DNA of 37,260 nt, taken from the NCBI GenBank assembly GCA_903836945.1, contig CAILSO010000030.1:1-37260 (forward strand). The letters are read 5' to 3'. The stretch comes from an uncultured Actinomycetes bacterium (GTDB lineage Bacteria; Actinomycetota; Actinomycetes; Nanopelagicales; Nanopelagicaceae). A model generated the notes under the pieces. That model had not been told where the DNA came from, did not search any database, and worked only from the letters and a program-made list of their open reading frames with translations. Shown piece by piece: positions 17,361-24,753 of this stretch; position 1 is the first letter of the stretch; each line of letters opens with the position of its first letter. Position numbers and translations under genes: made by a program.

Positions 17361-19214
17361 ATGTCATTTAAAGATTTAGGTATTGCCCCTGCGCTCGTAG
17401 AAGCGTTAGATGCGCAAGGAATCACCTCCCCATTCCCAATTCAAAAGGCAACCTTGCCTGATGCAATTAAAGGTCGCGATGTTTTAGGCCGCGGTCAGAC
17501 CGGTTCCGGAAAGACACTTGCATTTGGTTTAGCAATGCTGACTCGTTTACAGGGTCGCACTGCAAAGCCACATCGCCCTCTTGGTTTAATTCTCTCCCCA
17601 ACTCGCGAACTCGCTGTTCAGATTTCTGATGTAGTGGGTCCGCTATCTAGAAAAGTAAACCTAAGCACTCAAGTAGTTGCTGGTGGTCTTTCTTATGTTG
17701 GTCAGATTCGCGCACTTCGAAGTGGCGTATCAATCTTGGTGGCAACGCCAGGTCGCCTAATCGATCTAATCGAGAAGAAGCATGTTGAGTTAGATGATGT
17801 AGTTGTAACTGTTCTAGATGAGGCCGATCAAATGGCCGATATGGGATTCTTGCCAGTTGTTAAAGAAATTCTTTCGCAGACTAAGGCCGATGGCCAGCGT
17901 CTCTTGTTCTCAGCGACTCTTGATCGCGATGTAGATTCACTAGTCAAGCGTTTCCTGAAAGACCCAATTACACATTCACTTGAAAATGAAAAATCACGCG
18001 CAGCAGATATGTTGCACCACGTTTTAATTATGGAACAAGGTCAAAAAGATTTGGTAGCAACACAGATAGCAGCTCGTGAAGGTCGCACTATCTTTTTCGT
18101 GCGTACCAAGCACGGGGCAGATAAATTGGCTGAGAAGATGCTTCGCTCTGGAGTTCCAGTCGGCGTACTTCATGGTGGAAAATCTCAAGGACAGCGAACT
18201 CGTGTTCTTGCGGCATTTAAAGATGGTCGAGCCACTGCTCTAGTTGCAACAGATGTAGCAGCACGTGGAATCCACGTAGATGATGTCTCACTTGTTGTTC
18301 ACTACGATGCACCAGCAGATCACAAAGATTATTTACACCGTGCGGGTAGAACTGCTCGTGCTGGCGCAACAGGTGTTGTCGTAACTCTTGCTACCCACAA
18401 GCAGAAAAAGGGTGTCTATGGAATTACAAATCAAGCGAAGGTAAAACTCGCAGAAGTTTATGTAAAGCCATCTGATCCAGAATTAATCAAGATAACTGGT
18501 TCGCAAGAACCATCTGGCATCCCAGTAATTGTTGAGGCAGAAAAGCCTTCTCGCAATGATCGTGGTTCCAGAGATCGTGGCGAACGCGGCGGTTTTCGTC
18601 GTGGACATGTTGGCAGTTTCAAAAAGCGCAGCGAAGGTGGCGGTCGACGAACTGAAGAAGAACGTCCAGCGCGCCCAGATAGACCTGAAAGAAGTGAGAA
18701 GCCGGTTCGTTCATTCCGTGGCGCAACGCCAAATAAGCCAAAGTATGAAGACCGTCCTGCAAGAACAGAACGTCCAGTGCGTTCAGAACGTTCAGAACGC
18801 CCGGAAAGAAGCGAGAAGCCATTTCGCGCAGATCGTCATCCAAAGGCAGAGCGATTTGAAAAATCAGATCGTCCGGCAAAGGTAGATCGATTTAGCAAAC
18901 CTAAGAAGAACTTCAAATCAGATCGACCAATGACTTCAACTTGGCGTTCGGATGAAAGTCCAAGTGCGGATAAGAGTGAGAAGAAGGATTATAAGAAGTC
19001 GGCTTCAGCAGGTTCGCCGAAGGTTCGTGACAAGAATAAGGGTGCCCCAAAGAAGTTTGCTAAGAAGTATGAACCAAAGAAGTTTGAGAAGGCCGAACCA
19101 ACCAGACCTGGAAAGAAGTCAGCAAAGAAGAGTTCTGCAAGGCCAGTTAAGAAAGCTGCTAGTTCTTCAAAGCGCGATGCAGCGGGAAATAAAGCTCGGT
19201 TTAAGAAAGCTTAA
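17361..19214 (+). CDS. DEAD-box ATP-dependent RNA helicase (RhlE/CshA-like) with long basic tail
   Basis: A 617-residue RNA helicase for RNA unwinding in ribosome assembly, decay or cold adaptation. All core motifs are present: the Q-motif region (SFKDLGIAPALVEAL...PFPIQ), motif I GQTGSGKT (45-52), PTRELA, TPGR, DEAD (153-156), SAT, HGGKSQGQRT, VATDVAARGIHVDDV and HRAGRTARAG. The core ends near residue 385. The remaining about 230 residues are low-complexity and strongly charged, rich in Arg, Lys, Glu, Ser and Pro, with repeated RPERSEKP-like and (K/R)SDRP units and a final Lys/Ala/Ser tail; such tails bind RNA and can drive condensate formation. The gene follows its own structured leader. 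Its last 14 nt overlap the 3' end of the convergent ABC ATPase gene. Confidence 0.95.
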   Translation: MSFKDLGIAPALVEALDAQGITSPFPIQKATLPDAIKGRDVLGRGQTGSGKTLAFGLAMLTRLQGRTAKPHRPLGLILSPTRELAVQISDVVGPLSRKVNLSTQVVAGGLSYVGQIRALRSGVSILVATPGRLIDLIEKKHVELDDVVVTVLDEADQMADMGFLPVVKEILSQTKADGQRLLFSATLDRDVDSLVKRFLKDPITHSLENEKSRAADMLHHVLIMEQGQKDLVATQIAAREGRTIFFVRTKHGADKLAEKMLRSGVPVGVLHGGKSQGQRTRVLAAFKDGRATALVATDVAARGIHVDDVSLVVHYDAPADHKDYLHRAGRTARAGATGVVVTLATHKQKKGVYGITNQAKVKLAEVYVKPSDPELIKITGSQEPSGIPVIVEAEKPSRNDRGSRDRGERGGFRRGHVGSFKKRSEGGGRRTEEERPARPDRPERSEKPVRSFRGATPNKPKYEDRPARTERPVRSERSERPERSEKPFRADRHPKAERFEKSDRPAKVDRFSKPKKNFKSDRPMTSTWRSDESPSADKSEKKDYKKSASAGSPKVRDKNKGAPKKFAKKYEPKKFEKAEPTRPGKKSAKKSSARPVKKAASSSKRDAAGNKARFKKA

Positions 19215-19803
19215 TCTCTCGATCAAAATTAGCATCTAGGTGGTCGGTGTTGTGACTGACCACCATAAGGCCCTTAGTTTTTGCAACCTCTTGAAGCAAT
19301 CTGAGGATGCGCCTCACGCTAGTGGCATCCTGTGCGCTAAATGGTTCATCTAATAAATAAAAATCCGCTTCTTGGATCAACGTTATCGCCAAGCTTACTT
19401 TTTGCTGTTGTCCCAAAGATAGTTCCAGAATCGATGAATCTAGGATCTCGACAACACCGAGCTCTTCAATAATCTCATCAGTCGATAGCGCCTTGCGATT
19501 TGCTGGTTGCAAATTCAAAAGTTCTCTAACTTTAAATCCCATATTAAAAGTGCGATTTTGCGGTGCAATTGATCGAATCTTTGCTTGATCTTGAATCCGA
19601 ATCTCTTGCAACTCTTTGCCGTTTAAGGTCAAGGTTCCACTACTTGGCAGAAGGGCGCCACCAATTAGATTTAAGAGCGTCGTCTTACCACTTCCATTAA
19701 TGCCAGAAAGCAAGACGAGTTCACCTTTAGCTAATTGACCACTTACTGAATCAAGTATCAATTTATCGCCACGATAGAAGGCGAGGTCGTGCCACTTAAT
19801 CAT
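19201..19803 (-). CDS. hmuV: Heme/iron-type ABC transporter ATPase
   Basis: A 200-residue ABC ATPase powering the FecCD-type permease encoded just upstream. Walker A is GINGSGKTT (about 34-42), the Q-loop SIAPQNR, the signature LSLGQQQKVSLA, Walker B FYLLDEPFSAQD and the H-loop VVSHN. At 200 residues it is shorter than the 250-plus usual for HmuV or BtuD, ending shortly after the H-loop; no frameshift is visible, so this is a compact form. Its ATG overlaps the permease stop by 8 nt. The C-terminal codons overlap the helicase gene on the other strand. The name hmuV is given from the HmuT-like binding protein in the same operon. Confidence 0.82.
   Translation of the reverse strand: MIKWHDLAFYRGDKLILDSVSGQLAKGELVLLSGINGSGKTTLLNLIGGALLPSSGTLTLNGKELQEIRIQDQAKIRSIAPQNRTFNMGFKVRELLNLQPANRKALSTDEIIEELGVVEILDSSILELSLGQQQKVSLAITLIQEADFYLLDEPFSAQDATSVRRILRLLQEVAKTKGLMVVSHNTDHLDANFDREIKLS
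19239..19264 (+). other. Inverted repeat just downstream of the DEAD-box gene, inside hmuV
   Basis: GGTGGTCGGT and ACTGACCACC pair over 10 bp with one G-T wobble around a 6-nt loop, starting 24 nt after the helicase stop. No T-run follows directly (the nearest is at 19278-19282), so it is at best a partial terminator. It overlaps codons of the conserved ATPase H-loop and may be coincidental. Confidence 0.3.
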
Positions 19804-20779
19804 GGCTAACCCACATTGCGTTCTTGGTTCGTAGCAACAGAATCAAAACCGGTGCTCCGATAAGAGAAGTTATTAAGCCAAGTGGAATTTCATGCGGTTG
19901 AAAAATTGTCCGGACTAGAAGGTCGGCGAGTAGTAGAAGATCGGCGCCAATCATTGCGCTTAACCCAACCATCTTTCGGTGTGATGGTCCTATTAAAAGG
20001 CGAACGATATGTGGCACCAATAAACCTACGAAGGCGATCGCTCCGACCGCACTTACAGATGGTCCAATTAAGAAAGCCAAGGCAATGATTGCCCAGACCC
20101 GTACCGCTTTTGGATTGATACCCATAAAACGCGCTGAATTATCGCCAAGGGAATAGATATCTAATTTGCGGGAAACAAAGAGCGCCAAGATAAAACCAAC
20201 TTCGATAAATGGTGCAATAACTTTAATAATTTGGCTGTTTAGTAGGGCGAGGGAACCAAAATTCCAAAAAGAAATGGCTTGCACACCGGGTTTACTAGAG
20301 ATTGAGATCATTACTCCAGCGATTGCAGTTAAAGTGGCCGAGATCGCAATTCCGGTTATGAGAAATCCAAAACCCTTCTGTGGCGCCAGGAAGTAAATTA
20401 GGAAGGCGGATAAGGCCGCAAAAAGTATGGCTGACTCGACATTTGTCCGAGAACCAAATTCAGCCACACCAGTAGATATGACTGCAATCGTTCCCAGCGT
20501 TGCGCCACTTGTTAACCCAATCAGCGCCGGCTCGGCTAACGGATTTCTAAAAATTCCTTGCGCGATCGCCCCGGCAACACCTAGGGCTGCGCCTACTAAT
20601 AGCGCTCCCATAGCCCGCGGAAATCTGATCTGCCAAACTGTTGTGGCATCCACGCCAGAGTTCTTCCCAATCAATTTAATAAGCGGCGTTTGTAGGTGAA
20701 TAACGCCAATTTGAAGCGAGAGAATAAAGAGAATTACAAGGAGAACGAACGAAAAAAGGTAAAGATAAGAGCGCTTCAT
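19796..20779 (-). CDS. hmuU: Heme/iron-type ABC transporter permease (FecCD family)
   Basis: A 327-residue permease with about 9-10 hydrophobic segments. Family signatures are LVGAALGVAGAIAQGIFRNP followed by LAEPALIGLTSGATLG in the first third, and RFMGINPKAVRVWAI, GAIAFVGLLVPHIVRLLIGP and LIGAPVLILLLR in the last third, characteristic of the BtuC/FecD/HmuU group that moves heme, siderophores or cobalamin. Heme is favoured because of its HmuT-like partner. The ATG lies in the overlap with the binding-protein stop (ATGA on the minus strand), and its own end overlaps the ATPase start, so hmuT-hmuU-hmuV is one tightly coupled operon. Confidence 0.9.
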   Translation of the reverse strand: MKRSYLYLFSFVLLVILFILSLQIGVIHLQTPLIKLIGKNSGVDATTVWQIRFPRAMGALLVGAALGVAGAIAQGIFRNPLAEPALIGLTSGATLGTIAVISTGVAEFGSRTNVESAILFAALSAFLIYFLAPQKGFGFLITGIAISATLTAIAGVMISISSKPGVQAISFWNFGSLALLNSQIIKVIAPFIEVGFILALFVSRKLDIYSLGDNSARFMGINPKAVRVWAIIALAFLIGPSVSAVGAIAFVGLLVPHIVRLLIGPSHRKMVGLSAMIGADLLLLADLLVRTIFQPHEIPLGLITSLIGAPVLILLLRTKNAMWVSHD

Positions 20780-21675
20780 TGTCTTGCAACCTTATCAATG
20801 TCAGCGCGTAACAGTGGCAACATTGAAGAAGTTCTTGGCCCAAATGAGAGTAAGAGCGAATCATCTACCGTAACGATTCGCTTCCTCATGCCCGCCGGAG
20901 TTTGTGCAATGCCCGGAAGGGTTAATAGGCCACTTATTCCACCGACCGAATCCAAACCCTTGGTCATCAAAAGTAGAACGTCTGGATTCATTTTCACAAG
21001 AGCTTCAGCGCTTAGGGCAGTGAATGGCGTCTTCAAAAGTTGCGCACCAACATCAGTGACACCTATCGAATTCAAGATCGAATCAGTCCCAGATCCCTTG
21101 CCACCTACCAAGTAGATAGATGCAGTGCCACGAAGGTAGAGAAAGGCGACCTTCGTCTTACTTGGCGCAAAGCGCTGACTGGTTAAATCCTTGGCTAATA
21201 ACTTTGCCGCTTTGGGCACTCCCAAAATATTTGCTACAGCCGACTCCTTAGCAAATATTGCTGAGATCGAAAATGAGCTTGGAATAGTTACTATTTTGAT
21301 GCCAGAGTTTTTAAGAACGGTAAGTGCACTAGCTGGGCTGGTGTTTGAATCGATCAAAATTAAATCTGGGTGTTGGGCAAGAACTCGTTCAGTTGCTACT
21401 TGATGGGCATTTGTATCGATTGGAATATCAGCTAACTCCGGCATCGTCGAAGCAATGTCGCGCCCGACTAATAACTTTTTGTAGCCAAGAGCTCCGACAA
21501 TTTCAGCGCTACCGTCGGCAAGAGCAACAATTCTTTTATATTTAGAGATCTCACCACTTGAAACTATAGGAAGGCGTAACTGGCTCGGCCCGATGTTTGG
21601 AACTAAGTTTGCGGCGCTTACTGGCGGAATAGGTAATAGAAATACTGTTACTAAAATAACAAGGGCCCGCTTCAC
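20776..21675 (-). CDS. hmuT: Hemin-type ABC transporter substrate-binding protein
   Basis: A 299-residue periplasmic-binding-protein-like receptor. After a signal peptide (MKRALVILVTVFLLPIPPVS, then AANL) come RIVALADGSAEIVGALGYKK with LLVGRDIAST, then HPDLILID, and in the second lobe PFTALSAEALVKMNPDVLLL, MTKGLDSVGGISGLL, LPGIAQTPAGMRKR and LLLSFGPRTSSML, the pattern of HmuT hemin receptors. No cysteine follows the signal sequence, so it is not an evident lipoprotein, which is unusual for a single-membrane bacterium; how it stays at the surface is open. The start is GTG with no near Shine-Dalgarno; AATAAT ends 6 nt upstream. It is divergent from a secreted-protein gene 84 nt away. Confidence 0.85.
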   Translation of the reverse strand: MKRALVILVTVFLLPIPPVSAANLVPNIGPSQLRLPIVSSGEISKYKRIVALADGSAEIVGALGYKKLLVGRDIASTMPELADIPIDTNAHQVATERVLAQHPDLILIDSNTSPASALTVLKNSGIKIVTIPSSFSISAIFAKESAVANILGVPKAAKLLAKDLTSQRFAPSKTKVAFLYLRGTASIYLVGGKGSGTDSILNSIGVTDVGAQLLKTPFTALSAEALVKMNPDVLLLMTKGLDSVGGISGLLTLPGIAQTPAGMRKRIVTVDDSLLLSFGPRTSSMLPLLRADIDKVARQ

Positions 21676-21681
21676 TCGGCG

Positions 21682-21687
21682 ATTATT
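21682..21687 (-). promoter_or_regulatory. Candidate -10 of the hmuTUV operon (leaderless)
   Basis: On the minus strand AATAAT (five of six consensus bases) ends 6 nt before the hmuT GTG. There is no usable Shine-Dalgarno: the nearest purine run, GGAAG, is about 15 nt away. Confidence 0.4.
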
Positions 21688-21694
21688 GCACTTC

Positions 21695-21729
21695 CTTTCC
21701 CGACATCTTGATTGACTTTGTCCGGAAAG
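21695..21729. promoter_or_regulatory. Inverted repeat in the hmuT / secreted-protein divergent promoter
   Basis: CTTTCCCGAC (21695-21704) and GTCCGGAAAG (21720-21729) are inverted copies matching at 9 of 10 positions, separated by 15 nt. They lie between the two proposed -10 elements and so could bind one regulator controlling both directions. The repeat does not resemble the usual Fur or IdeR box by eye. Confidence 0.45.
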
Positions 21730-21747
21730 CTAAGCGTAGGAAGCGGC

Positions 21748-21753
21748 TATATT
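21748..21753 (+). promoter_or_regulatory. Candidate -10 of the secreted-protein gene (leaderless)
   Basis: TATATT ends 6 nt before the ATG at 21760. No Shine-Dalgarno is present close to that ATG. Confidence 0.45.
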
Positions 21754-21759
21754 CGCCAT

Positions 21760-22242
21760 ATGCGCAAGATTGTATTTTTATTGTTTCTCACAATAACTGC
21801 AACAACAAATCAATCTGCACATGCGGCGCAAGCTACAAGTAATAATGGCTCAATTTTGACGGTATCAAAATCAACGAGTATTGCTACCGGGGATAAATTA
21901 ACTATTACGGGTGCGCACTTTGATGAGACAGTTGGGATCTACTTAGCTCTTTGCAAAATTGTTCCTTCCACAAAATTACCAACACCTTGTGGGGGAGGAA
22001 TGGATAAGACTGGGAAGACCGGTTCCTCGATTTGGATCTCATCAAACCCACCGGCATACGGGGTAGGTCTAGCCAAGCCATATGAACCAGGCGGACGATT
22101 TACCGAAGTTATCAAGGTTTCACCGATGATTGGAAAATTGGACTGTCGCAAAATTGCCTGTGCTATTTATGTTCGCGCAGATCACACCCGCACCGATGAT
22201 CGATCATTTGATTTAAGGATTCCAGTTTATTTTAAAAAATAA
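21760..22242 (+). CDS. Secreted protein with neocarzinostatin-like cysteine pattern
   Basis: A 160-residue exported protein. The signal peptide is about residues 1-22 (MRKIVFLLFLTITATTNQSAHA). The mature part begins like an immunoglobulin-type beta domain (ILTVSKSTSIATGDKLTITG) and continues ALCKIV, PTPCGGG, SSIWISSNPPAYG, LDCRKIACAIYVRADHTR and DDRSFDLRIPVYF. Four cysteines fall as C65...C77 and C129-x4-C134; neocarzinostatin-family proteins have two disulfides, the second also with four residues between. I chose ATG 21760 because the signal peptide then begins at residue 1; the longer frame from 21712 adds 16 non-hydrophobic residues. Its place divergent from hmuTUV suggests a heme-related extracellular role (inference). 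Binding of any ligand is unproven. Confidence 0.7.
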   Translation: MRKIVFLLFLTITATTNQSAHAAQATSNNGSILTVSKSTSIATGDKLTITGAHFDETVGIYLALCKIVPSTKLPTPCGGGMDKTGKTGSSIWISSNPPAYGVGLAKPYEPGGRFTEVIKVSPMIGKLDCRKIACAIYVRADHTRTDDRSFDLRIPVYFKK

Positions 22243-22271
22243 CTTACAGAACGACGAATAGAAGAGGAAAT

Positions 22272-23231
22272 ATGAAAAGAGTAATAATCACTTTAACTTC
22301 AATCGCACTATCAATCTCAACAATTTCTGGTGCTTCTGCAATAACTATGATCCAAGGTGGCCCATACACAAATTTGGATCCAGTAGCTGGAAAGATCCAC
22401 TTAAATCTTTCAAATTATCCAACTACAAAGGGTCTCTACATTTTTCAAGTTGTCCGAAACCGAGCAAGTTCCAACGCTCGACCAACTGTCATCAATATGG
22501 ATAATGCGGTTGACGTGACTACTTCCATGAACCATGCGGATGTTGTATTTACCGCGGTTGGCTCATTCACAACATCAGCAGGAGTTACGGATTGTTCGAA
22601 AGTTGAATGTGCTCTTTGGGAGCAGTATGACGGTGCATCTGGAAGTTATAACGTCACCGATGAGGATCAATACATATCTTCACTCTCATTTGCTGCCGCC
22701 ACTACAGCGGCTCTTCCAGCAGACACAATCAACGCGACAATTAATGGAAGCCCCATCTCCCCAACGACTCCAGGGACCTTGGCATACCGAACCCCAACCA
22801 CAATCTCAGTCGTTACTGGTTCTGGCGCAACGGCAACAATTGCCTCTTCAACAACCGATTGTTCTGTGAAAGGGAATGTTGTTGAGGTGCTTAAAGTTGT
22901 CGCAGCAGGTTGTGACTTTGTGATTTCTTCGCCAGGTAATGCAACGACCGGAACTAAGGTGACACACTTTCCATTTATGTTGGTGCCAGGCACTCAGGTT
23001 GTAACTCAGAAAATTACAAAGTTAAAGATTGGAAAAATTTCAACTCTAACTGCTAAGACAAATTACGGCGAAGGTGTTGGTTACACCTCAACGACCAAGA
23101 AGATTTGTACTGTCAAAGGTACGAACGTTGTTGGTTTAAAGGTGGGTAGTTGTATCTTGAATGAGGTCGCAGCCGGTACATCTAATTACGGTGCAGTGTC
23201 GACCTCAATTACTTTGCCAGTCGCAAAGTAA
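22272..23231 (+). CDS. Secreted protein with related N-terminal domain and two Ig-like repeats
   Basis: A 319-residue exported protein with signal peptide (about 1-25, MKRVIITLTSIALSISTIS, then GASA). Residues about 28-150 parallel the preceding gene: LNLSNYPTTKGLYIFQV corresponds to ITGAHFDETVGIYLALC, and DCSKVECALWEQYD (C108-x4-C113) to DCRKIACAIYVRAD; the first cysteine pair is missing. After an Ala/Thr/Pro linker come two beta repeats of the form C.V.G..V..L..G.C (C197/C214 and C279/C294), common in actinobacterial surface proteins. It follows the previous gene by 29 nt with a good ribosome site AGAGGAAA (22263-22270), so the two form an operon. Function is unknown; heme-related surface binding is a guess from context. 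Its stop is 3 nt from the convergent TetR gene. Confidence 0.7.
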   Translation: MKRVIITLTSIALSISTISGASAITMIQGGPYTNLDPVAGKIHLNLSNYPTTKGLYIFQVVRNRASSNARPTVINMDNAVDVTTSMNHADVVFTAVGSFTTSAGVTDCSKVECALWEQYDGASGSYNVTDEDQYISSLSFAAATTAALPADTINATINGSPISPTTPGTLAYRTPTTISVVTGSGATATIASSTTDCSVKGNVVEVLKVVAAGCDFVISSPGNATTGTKVTHFPFMLVPGTQVVTQKITKLKIGKISTLTAKTNYGEGVGYTSTTKKICTVKGTNVVGLKVGSCILNEVAAGTSNYGAVSTSITLPVAK

Positions 23232-23234
23232 GAG

Positions 23235-23828
23235 TCAATTAGCTTGTAGGGCCAGGGCTCGAAGTCCAGCGATTGCAAAAGTCGTTGCATTGCGGATTTC
23301 GAGTTCTGCATCATTTCCAGCTTCGATACGAACACTTGCGGCATCGGTTACGCTGGAGATGAAGGCCGAAGCACTGACTAAATCTTTAATACCTGTTGCA
23401 GCAAGCGCCTCACGTAGTGGTGCGATCAACTTGCGGTGGCCTAGGGCTATCTCTTCTTTTCTAAAATCTGGTGTTGCCACTGTGTTCAAAGATTTAACCA
23501 ACATATGGCGACCATCTTGGACATAGCGAAGACCTTCAGCAATCCAAAGCTCTAACTTTTCAAATGGATCGGTTGCATCTTTTATAGCTTCACCCAAGCG
23601 CGTGCAGTAGTAATCAAGTTCTTCAATTACTAAATCGGCGATTAAATCGGCAGAGCTTGCAAAGTATTCATAGATAGAACTTCTCGCCAATCCTGCCTTT
23701 GCCGCAACGGCTGCAACTGAAACCGCCTGCGCCCCTTGGTCAAGCGCTAACTCCATGGCAGCGCTGATGAGTTGTTGCCGCCGCATTTCGCGATTGGCAC
23801 TCAGGGTTGGCGCTTGGATTTTAGGCAC
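23235..23828 (-). CDS. TetR-family transcriptional regulator
   Basis: A TetR-type repressor of about 197 residues. The N-terminal helix-turn-helix is clear: RRQQLISAAMELALDQGAQA, VSVAAVAAKAGLARSSIYEY, FASSADLIADLV. The ligand-binding C-terminal domain is generic, so the effector is unknown. Start choice is uncertain: the ATG at 23855 lies 35 nt inside the upstream transporter gene, the GTG at 23828 overlaps it by 8 nt (used here), and an ATG at 23786 would still keep the helix-turn-helix. It is the last gene of the LCP-YdcZ-TetR run on the minus strand and may regulate the neighbouring transporter. Confidence 0.85.
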   Translation of the reverse strand: MPKIQAPTLSANREMRRQQLISAAMELALDQGAQAVSVAAVAAKAGLARSSIYEYFASSADLIADLVIEELDYYCTRLGEAIKDATDPFEKLELWIAEGLRYVQDGRHMLVKSLNTVATPDFRKEEIALGHRKLIAPLREALAATGIKDLVSASAFISSVTDAASVRIEAGNDAELEIRNATTFAIAGLRALALQAN

Positions 23829-24753
23829 GTGCTGAGTTTGCCACCTTTGATTCAAAACCTCTAGATATAGCTATGGAGCCCAGCGTAAGAAGTGTTCCGG
23901 TTATCAGGTAAGCGTTTAAGGCCCCCTTGTGTGTTGGTGCAATCCAGTCACAAGCAAGTGCGCCAAACAATTGGCCAGTGACATTTAACAAAATAAAATT
24001 CAGAATTCCCAAAGATTTAATAATGTAGGCGCTGACTGCAATAAAAATTAAACCAAGCGAGCCTCCGGTATATAACCATGGATTGGTCGGAAGTTTTCCA
24101 ATCGTTGCACCACCTAATAATTTGATCGCCAACGCAATTGAGATGATTATGGTTCCCATAAAGAAGTTCATCCAAGCCGTTGCGAAGGCGCTATTAGAAA
24201 TTGCTTTAACTCGGCCATTTAAAGCTTGCTGGACTGAAACTCCGGTACCAACGATTACTGCCGCAATAAGTGGAAGAAAGCGGAAGGTAGAACTCTTTAA
24301 ATCTGGATACACCGCAATTACTACGGAGATCAAGGTCGCGATGGCGGCGATGACTCGTGGGAGAGTTATTCGTTTTTTTCCACTTGGGGAAAGCCCAACC
24401 TTATCTACGATTAATGAGGAGACAGTCTGACCACCAACAACGCAGATGGTGAAGAGGGCTACTCCAATGGTTGGAACTGTAATGCTCTGGGTTGAAACAA
24501 AAGCGCCACCAATTAAGCCACCAGTTATCTCCCAAATACGAATCTTTCGATGTCGCCAGGCGCGAAAAATCGAAAACAAACTATTTCGTTCGCTACGCCT
24601 TGTGAAGATAATTAAAAATAGTATGGCCCAACCAGTCAAAAATGAGATCAGTGCGGCGGCTAATCCGTTGTGAATATCGATAGAAAGTTGACCGTTAATG
24701 CGAGACTGAATCGCGGTAAGCGCCCCGATAAATATTGCCAGAAGGGCATACAT
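23821..24753 (-). CDS. YdcZ-type (DMT superfamily) membrane transporter
   Basis: A 310-residue protein with about 10 hydrophobic segments built as a duplication: the motif AIQSRINGQLS near residue 14 recurs as SVQQALNGRVK in the second half, each starting a 5-helix unit, as in two-domain YdcZ (DMT_YdcZ) proteins. Substrates of this group are largely unknown; export of small metabolites or drugs is typical for DMT proteins. Its ATG comes directly after the TAA of the LCP gene with no spacer, and its end overlaps the TetR gene, so the three are co-transcribed. The adjoining TetR gene suggests inducible export (inference). Confidence 0.85.
   Translation of the reverse strand: MYALLAIFIGALTAIQSRINGQLSIDIHNGLAAALISFLTGWAILFLIIFTRRSERNSLFSIFRAWRHRKIRIWEITGGLIGGAFVSTQSITVPTIGVALFTICVVGGQTVSSLIVDKVGLSPSGKKRITLPRVIAAIATLISVVIAVYPDLKSSTFRFLPLIAAVIVGTGVSVQQALNGRVKAISNSAFATAWMNFFMGTIIISIALAIKLLGGATIGKLPTNPWLYTGGSLGLIFIAVSAYIIKSLGILNFILLNVTGQLFGALACDWIAPTHKGALNAYLITGTLLTLGSIAISRGFESKVANSARA

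Follow-up and report, generated by a model that had tools for sequence, protein, structure and literature searches.

Described systems related to the locus

Among described systems, the closest to the locus considered here is the HtaA/HtaB/ChtA-HmuTUV heme uptake system of Corynebacterium, in which HmuT-HmuU-HmuV has conserved heme ligands and exported beta-sandwich proteins are encoded alongside the transporter. Heme binding by the HtaA (CR) domain is established (PMC12494546), and in HmuT of C. glutamicum (CgHmuT) heme is ligated by His141 and Tyr240, the latter being supported by Arg242 (PMC4926363). The same plan is found in the window, the whole stretch of 37,260 nucleotides analyzed here (contig CAILSO010000030.1 of assembly GCA_903836945.1, from an uncultured member of the Nanopelagicaceae), where hmuT, hmuU and hmuV are divergent from the genes of two secreted proteins, termed P1 and P2. 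The surface protein of P1 type found in larger actinobacteria carries an anchor, either an LPXTG-type signal or a C-terminal membrane signal, which is also in line with the Corynebacterium system. However, the genome of the window has no HtaA (CR) domain, and the exported proteins are of a predicted neocarzinostatin-like, two-disulfide type with no Pfam HtaA match. The best overall explanation, which we consider likely, is that the locus is the heme uptake system of a streamlined, heme-auxotrophic actinobacterium, with neocarzinostatin-fold proteins in place of HtaA-type ones.

The enediyne apoproteins (PF00960: neocarzinostatin, which carries an antitumour drug, macromomycin, C-1027, kedarcidin and actinoxanthin) share with P1 the predicted fold, the size, the two disulfides and the C-x4-C spacing of the second, and part of the P1 family scores in that Pfam model. 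Unlike them, P1 has a neighbourhood of heme transport genes and carries a W-I-S-S-N-P-P-x-Y-G segment and an R-A-D-H loop, and its sequence identity to solved members of the neocarzinostatin family amounts to 10-15%. When the PDB is searched with the profile of the P1 family, the best sequence match (E 2.5e-7) is 7qhm chain M, which is ThiX of the C. glutamicum cytochrome bcc-aa3 supercomplex, and its alignment with P1 includes the C-x4-C pair; ThiX, unlike P1, is a lipid-anchored subunit of a respiratory supercomplex, and its soluble domain is unresolved in the structure (PMC8795186). Judging from this match, the ThiX of the heme-rich supercomplex may bring a domain of neocarzinostatin-like type to the respiratory chain. 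No paper joining neocarzinostatin with heme uptake was found in a literature search whose coverage left out most subscription journals, and neocarzinostatin was unmentioned in the top-ranked literature on HtaA, HmuT or heme transport.

An earlier note, made from the sequence of the window, had described the divergent arrangement, and all five genes lie where it had placed them, both secreted proteins having a signal peptide. The start of P1 is the ATG at 21760, the mechanically called open reading frame (ORF) opening earlier, at a TTG. The features of the locus are as follows.

19201..19803, minus strand: hmuV, ABC-transporter ATPase (Pfam ABC_tran, E 2.7e-28)
19796..20779, minus strand: hmuU, FecCD-type permease (Pfam FecCD, E 1.8e-80)
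20776..21675, minus strand: hmuT, heme-type substrate-binding protein with a GTG start and no lipobox cysteine; best PDB matches are of the hemin-binding HmuT type
21700..21724, no strand: 25-bp inverted repeat, putative operator, consensus CCGACA-N13-TGTCGG, between the divergent hmuT and P1
21760..22242, plus strand: P1, secreted single-domain protein with a predicted neocarzinostatin fold; C65-C77 and C129-C134
22272..23231, plus strand: P2, secreted; an N-terminal P1-like domain (about 22341-22697) followed by two Ig-like domains
23235..23855, minus strand: TetR-family regulator (Pfam TetR_N, E 8.4e-11), TTG start in the ORF list

Association of P1 with the heme importer

In a scan of public genomes performed with the P1 family alone, 80 loci were recovered and hmuT adjoined P1 in 80 of 80, with the gene order hmuV-hmuU-hmuT / P1-P2 / tetR present in nearly all of those where the contig extends far enough. 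Among the labels of contigs that carry close P1 relatives were Nanopelagicaceae, Planktophila, IMCC26077 and the cultured isolate LanE-43 (L073), which points to a freshwater genome of Nanopelagicales type. Additionally, a sample of 395 genomes drawn evenly from the class was surveyed, in which a strong P1 was found in 71 genomes, an HmuT-type protein in 135 and both in 66 (Fisher p 8.5e-31, a value that ignores shared ancestry). P1 was located within 1.6 kb of hmuT in 62 of the 71 strong-P1 genomes, representing nine of ten families; the two genes are divergent in 57 of these and co-directional in five. Within the window's family, a strong P1 and hmuT occurred in exactly the same 21 sampled genomes. 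This spread over families, together with the match of presence and absence within one family, is a better argument than the Fisher value.

Nine strong-P1 genomes departed from this linkage. In G415 and G137, P1 lies near a contig start and hmuT was not found, while in G073 hmuT stands at the start of a contig; four further genomes belong to one Streptomyces-like family, G235 gave a partial match, and in G158, where no hmuTUV was found, the W-I-S-S-N-P-P-x-Y-G segment of P1 is decayed. Most exceptions are contig ends or belong to a single family that has HtaA at its hmuT. Since the linkage is conserved, adjacency by chance is excluded, and the association of P1 with the heme importer is strongly supported. 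The earlier note had called for a survey of co-occurrence and had confined its idea to this lineage; the P1 gene accompanies hmuTUV almost without exception, in the lineage as supposed, but the pairing extends more widely, to nine families of the class.

A different arrangement was observed in the high-GC Actinomadura atramentaria (L099), in which P1 has a C-terminal membrane anchor, hmuTUV lies downstream on the same strand, and two more secreted P1-like proteins are encoded divergently from P1. In the same region (L099 3734-7883), one of the P1-like proteins beside P1-hmuTUV has a WxL-type tail (Pfam WxL just under the cut-off), and a long reading frame has a C-terminal part that, on reading, appears to resemble a DUF916-type WxL partner.

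The transporter

The adjacent substrate-binding protein, FecCD permease and ATPase all have Pfam matches above the cut-off. At the level of NCBIfam, the best model for HmuV was the heme ABC ATPase (E 1.1e-33), but under its cut-off, and the HmuU permease matched corrinoid and siderophore models about equally, all of them under the cut-off. The best PDB matches of HmuT were crystallised hemin-binding HmuT proteins (5az3, E 5.6e-35; 3md9, E 1.7e-28; also 5gj3). In the alignment to 5az3, in which the chain numbering plus 23 gives the CgHmuT numbering, the window HmuT has the His, Tyr and Arg that match His141, Tyr240 and Arg242, and these columns are invariant in 24 homologs. Because the protein is closest to crystallised HmuT and the heme ligands are kept, the step from a FecCD-type importer to a heme importer is well based, hemin transport itself being predicted. 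The lipobox cysteine is present in most HmuT homologs, the window HmuT and some relatives being without it.

Predicted fold and candidate heme site of P1

The cysteine pattern noticed earlier in the first secreted protein was borne out, P1 having exactly four cysteines (C65, C77, C129 and C134, numbered from the ATG at 21760). Of 70 non-redundant P1 domains, 69-70 keep these columns; the pattern points to two disulfides. The AlphaFold2 model, built on an alignment of 56 sequences, reached a mean pLDDT of 87.5 and a pTM of 0.83. When this model was compared with the PDB by Foldseek, the enediyne apoproteins of the neocarzinostatin family came first, as the earlier note had anticipated: macromomycin at rank 1 (E 5.1e-6) and neocarzinostatin at rank 2 (E 1.6e-4), with ranks 1-10 filled by macromomycin, neocarzinostatin (native and engineered or mutant), C-1027 and kedarcidin at E 5.1e-6 to 1.4e-3, probability 1.00 and a target-normalised TM of 0.60-0.72. 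The sole NCBIfam match of P1 was the enediyne chromoprotein model (E 1.9e-4, far under the cut-off), Pfam Neocarzinostat matched 22 of 56 P1 family members at E <0.01, and the HmuT-linked relatives L147 and L133 scored 26 and 31.8 bits in PF00960 (cut-off 25). A sequence search of the PDB with the P1 profile found ThiX and not neocarzinostatin, and the link to the neocarzinostatin family therefore comes from the fold search and the Pfam matches of relatives. Taken as a prediction from the model, a neocarzinostatin-type fold for P1 is strongly supported.

Among the residues invariant in the 70 domains are Tyr61, Trp92, Arg139, Asp141, His142 and Arg148, and Tyr100 is kept in 97%; the conserved segments are W-I-S-S-N-P-P-x-Y-G and the R-A-D-H loop. 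In neocarzinostatin, the loop after the second disulfide borders the chromophore cleft, and by analogy His142 of P1 would lie at the corresponding cleft. In CR domains and HmuT, a Tyr ligates heme, assisted by another residue or accompanied by His as the second ligand (PMC12494546, PMC4926363), and for this reason Tyr61, Tyr100 and His142 are the first candidate heme residues. Considering context and conservation, heme binding by the P1 fold is likely.

Relation of P1 to HtaA

The absence of an HtaA-type partner, remarked upon in the earlier note, holds for the whole 1.26-Mb assembly of the window (about 90% complete), in which HtaA (PF04213) was absent. HtaA was detected in 92 of the 395 genomes, none of the 92 being in the window's family. 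Three kinds of loci were distinguished: HtaA beside hmuT without P1 (the Streptomyces-like family f19), HtaA and P1 in one genome and often adjacent (families f17 and f20), and P1 without HtaA (the window's family, most of f33 and a few others). Additionally, at least 13 genomes, belonging to three families, have a single ORF matched by both the P1 profile and HtaA, as counted by eye from identical frame lengths at neighbouring places in the P1 and HtaA searches. In L147, one protein beside P1 and hmuTUV has a Pfam Neocarzinostat domain (26 bits, the cut-off being 25) between two HtaA domains, followed by LPXTG; with the P1 profile, a P1-like domain was also detected in HtaA proteins from L134 and L146. 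Since heme binding by HtaA is established, this fusion is the strongest hint of P1 function short of an assay. In f20 genomes (e.g. G155:C1:664467-671198), frames of 1000-2650 residues with several HtaA and P1-type domains stand beside P1 and hmuT.

The second secreted protein

P2 was found to be longer than the earlier note had described; the C108-x4-C113 pair in a domain parallel to P1 is present as it said, but the extra C-terminal domains, namely two Ig-like domains with four more cysteines, had been omitted. According to HHalign, the P1 family is related to the N-terminal domain of the P2 family (probability 99%, E 1.7e-18). The AlphaFold2 model of P2 has a pLDDT of 92.7, and a fold search with the whole model gave generic Ig-like matches only. 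Many relatives retain both disulfides in the P2 domain, indicating that the window P2 has lost one. Loci of the window's family almost all have P2 following P1; even so, its tie to hmuTUV is the weaker case, P1 being linked more tightly.

Inverted repeat and candidate regulator

The intergenic region between hmuT and P1 contains the inverted repeat CCGACA-N13-TGTCGG. Of 91 divergent loci, 67 have it at spacer 13 with at most two mismatches, and 66 of the 67 have no more than one; other spacers gave almost none, and the shuffled controls averaged 1.4 loci, with 5 as the maximum. The window copy (21700-21724) has one mismatch. The repeat is confined to the window's family (loci in the L021-L098 range), all loci of other families being without it. 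In 61 genomes of the family, exact copies number at most one per genome, and in G061, G093 and G385, which have hmuT, the single exact copy sits at the hmuT-P1 locus; because of this, the repeat is probably a local operator. The window's own genome has four sites at no more than one mismatch, two of them in this locus. A genome-wide regulon was considered and rejected, the two-mismatch count of 29 in this genome being near the 26 of the control. Scans for sigma-70 promoters and terminators gave results close to the shuffled control. A tetR gene occupies the same place in nearly all loci of the window's family, which makes the adjacent TetR-type gene a candidate regulator of the locus.

Heme auxotrophy

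A search for hemB in the window's genus found the gene in none of 23 genomes, as would be expected of heme auxotrophs; of 14 other members of the class, 12 have it. Heme auxotrophy has been reported for cultured relatives, Planktophila and Nanopelagicales (PMC12381374, PMC10202952). Given both observations, imported heme is expected to serve as a cofactor.

Proposed mechanism and alternative explanations

In the proposed mechanism, P1 (and probably P2) would be exported, with the disulfides closing outside the cell, and would bind heme, or a ligand that carries it, at the cleft corresponding to the neocarzinostatin chromophore site. Heme would then be handed to HmuT, and HmuUV would import it as a cofactor, while a regulator, possibly the adjacent TetR, would act at the inverted repeat between the divergent genes. 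We infer heme as the P1 ligand, its transfer to HmuT, the role of P2 and the identity of the regulator. It is reasonably probable that P1 works outside the cell as a component of HmuTUV that binds heme or relays it.

Several observations weigh against this interpretation. The window P1 itself falls under the Pfam and NCBIfam cut-offs, and the window P2 lacks one disulfide and the conserved His. The four Streptomyces-like genomes have P1-type domains away from hmuT, and P2-type and tetR genes occur at loci of relatives without hmuTUV. Finally, several members of the genus that lack hemB have neither a recognisable hmuT nor a strong P1, one of them being 99% complete, which implies that some heme auxotrophs must use another heme route. 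As separate observations, the hemB-less genomes of this kind are G001, G014 and G022 (genus g1), and in L161, L165 and L166 a single-domain P2-type gene adjoins a TetR gene with no hmuTUV, one such genome (G165) having an hmu locus elsewhere.

Alternatively, P1 and P2 could participate in heme uptake without binding heme. As adaptors of Ig fold, they would either tether HmuT, an HtaA-type protein or a protein carrying heme to the surface or lend stability to the transporter. Modules for interaction commonly have Ig-like folds, P2 has two extra domains of this kind, and the HtaA domains fused to P1-type domains already bind heme, so that the P1 domain need not. We regard this as unlikely; the window's family has no HtaA to present, yet its P1 is equally conserved, with invariant Tyr, Trp and His. 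Because the permease fits corrinoid and siderophore models about equally, all under the cut-off, and annotation by family alone is weak, the substrate of the transporter, also bound by P1, might instead be something other than heme, for example a siderophore or a different tetrapyrrole. Such a substrate is improbable in view of the closeness of HmuT to crystallised hemin-binding HmuT, with the His/Tyr/Arg site in all 24 homologs, and of the HtaA domains fused to or adjoining P1-type domains at such loci.

The fold, the disulfide pattern and the enediyne chromoprotein model as the sole NCBIfam match would also be compatible with a P1 that, in the manner of neocarzinostatin, carries an antibiotic-like chromophore or protects its producer from it, and that is placed beside hmuTUV for unrelated reasons. 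However, the adjacency to hmuT in nine families and the fusion with HtaA tie P1 to heme, and the window genes that were inspected showed no sign of an enediyne cluster, no genome-wide search having been made; this explanation is very improbable.

Significance

According to the preferred interpretation, in which P1 binds or relays heme for HmuTUV, the finding is a variant of a known actinobacterial heme uptake system. If P1 binds heme, it would represent a new structural class of hemophore. A wider proposal, to which we give slightly less than even credence, is that hmuTUV-linked neocarzinostatin-fold domains form a hemophore class apart from CR/HtaA, NEAT, HasA and HmuY. Heme-auxotrophic actinobacteria of freshwater would rely on this class alone, elsewhere it would operate alongside HtaA, and the enediyne carriers would be an offshoot of an older tetrapyrrole-handling family. 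If true, this would provide a cellular role for the neocarzinostatin fold outside antibiotic carriers and a hint at the origin of those carriers. Freshwater Nanopelagicales are abundant and depend on the heme of others, and the locus names candidates for catching it, also in the isolate LanE-43. The pairing with hmuTUV recurs across actinobacteria, abundant lake bacteria unable to make heme among them, and the neocarzinostatin fold is thus probably an overlooked means of capturing extracellular heme.

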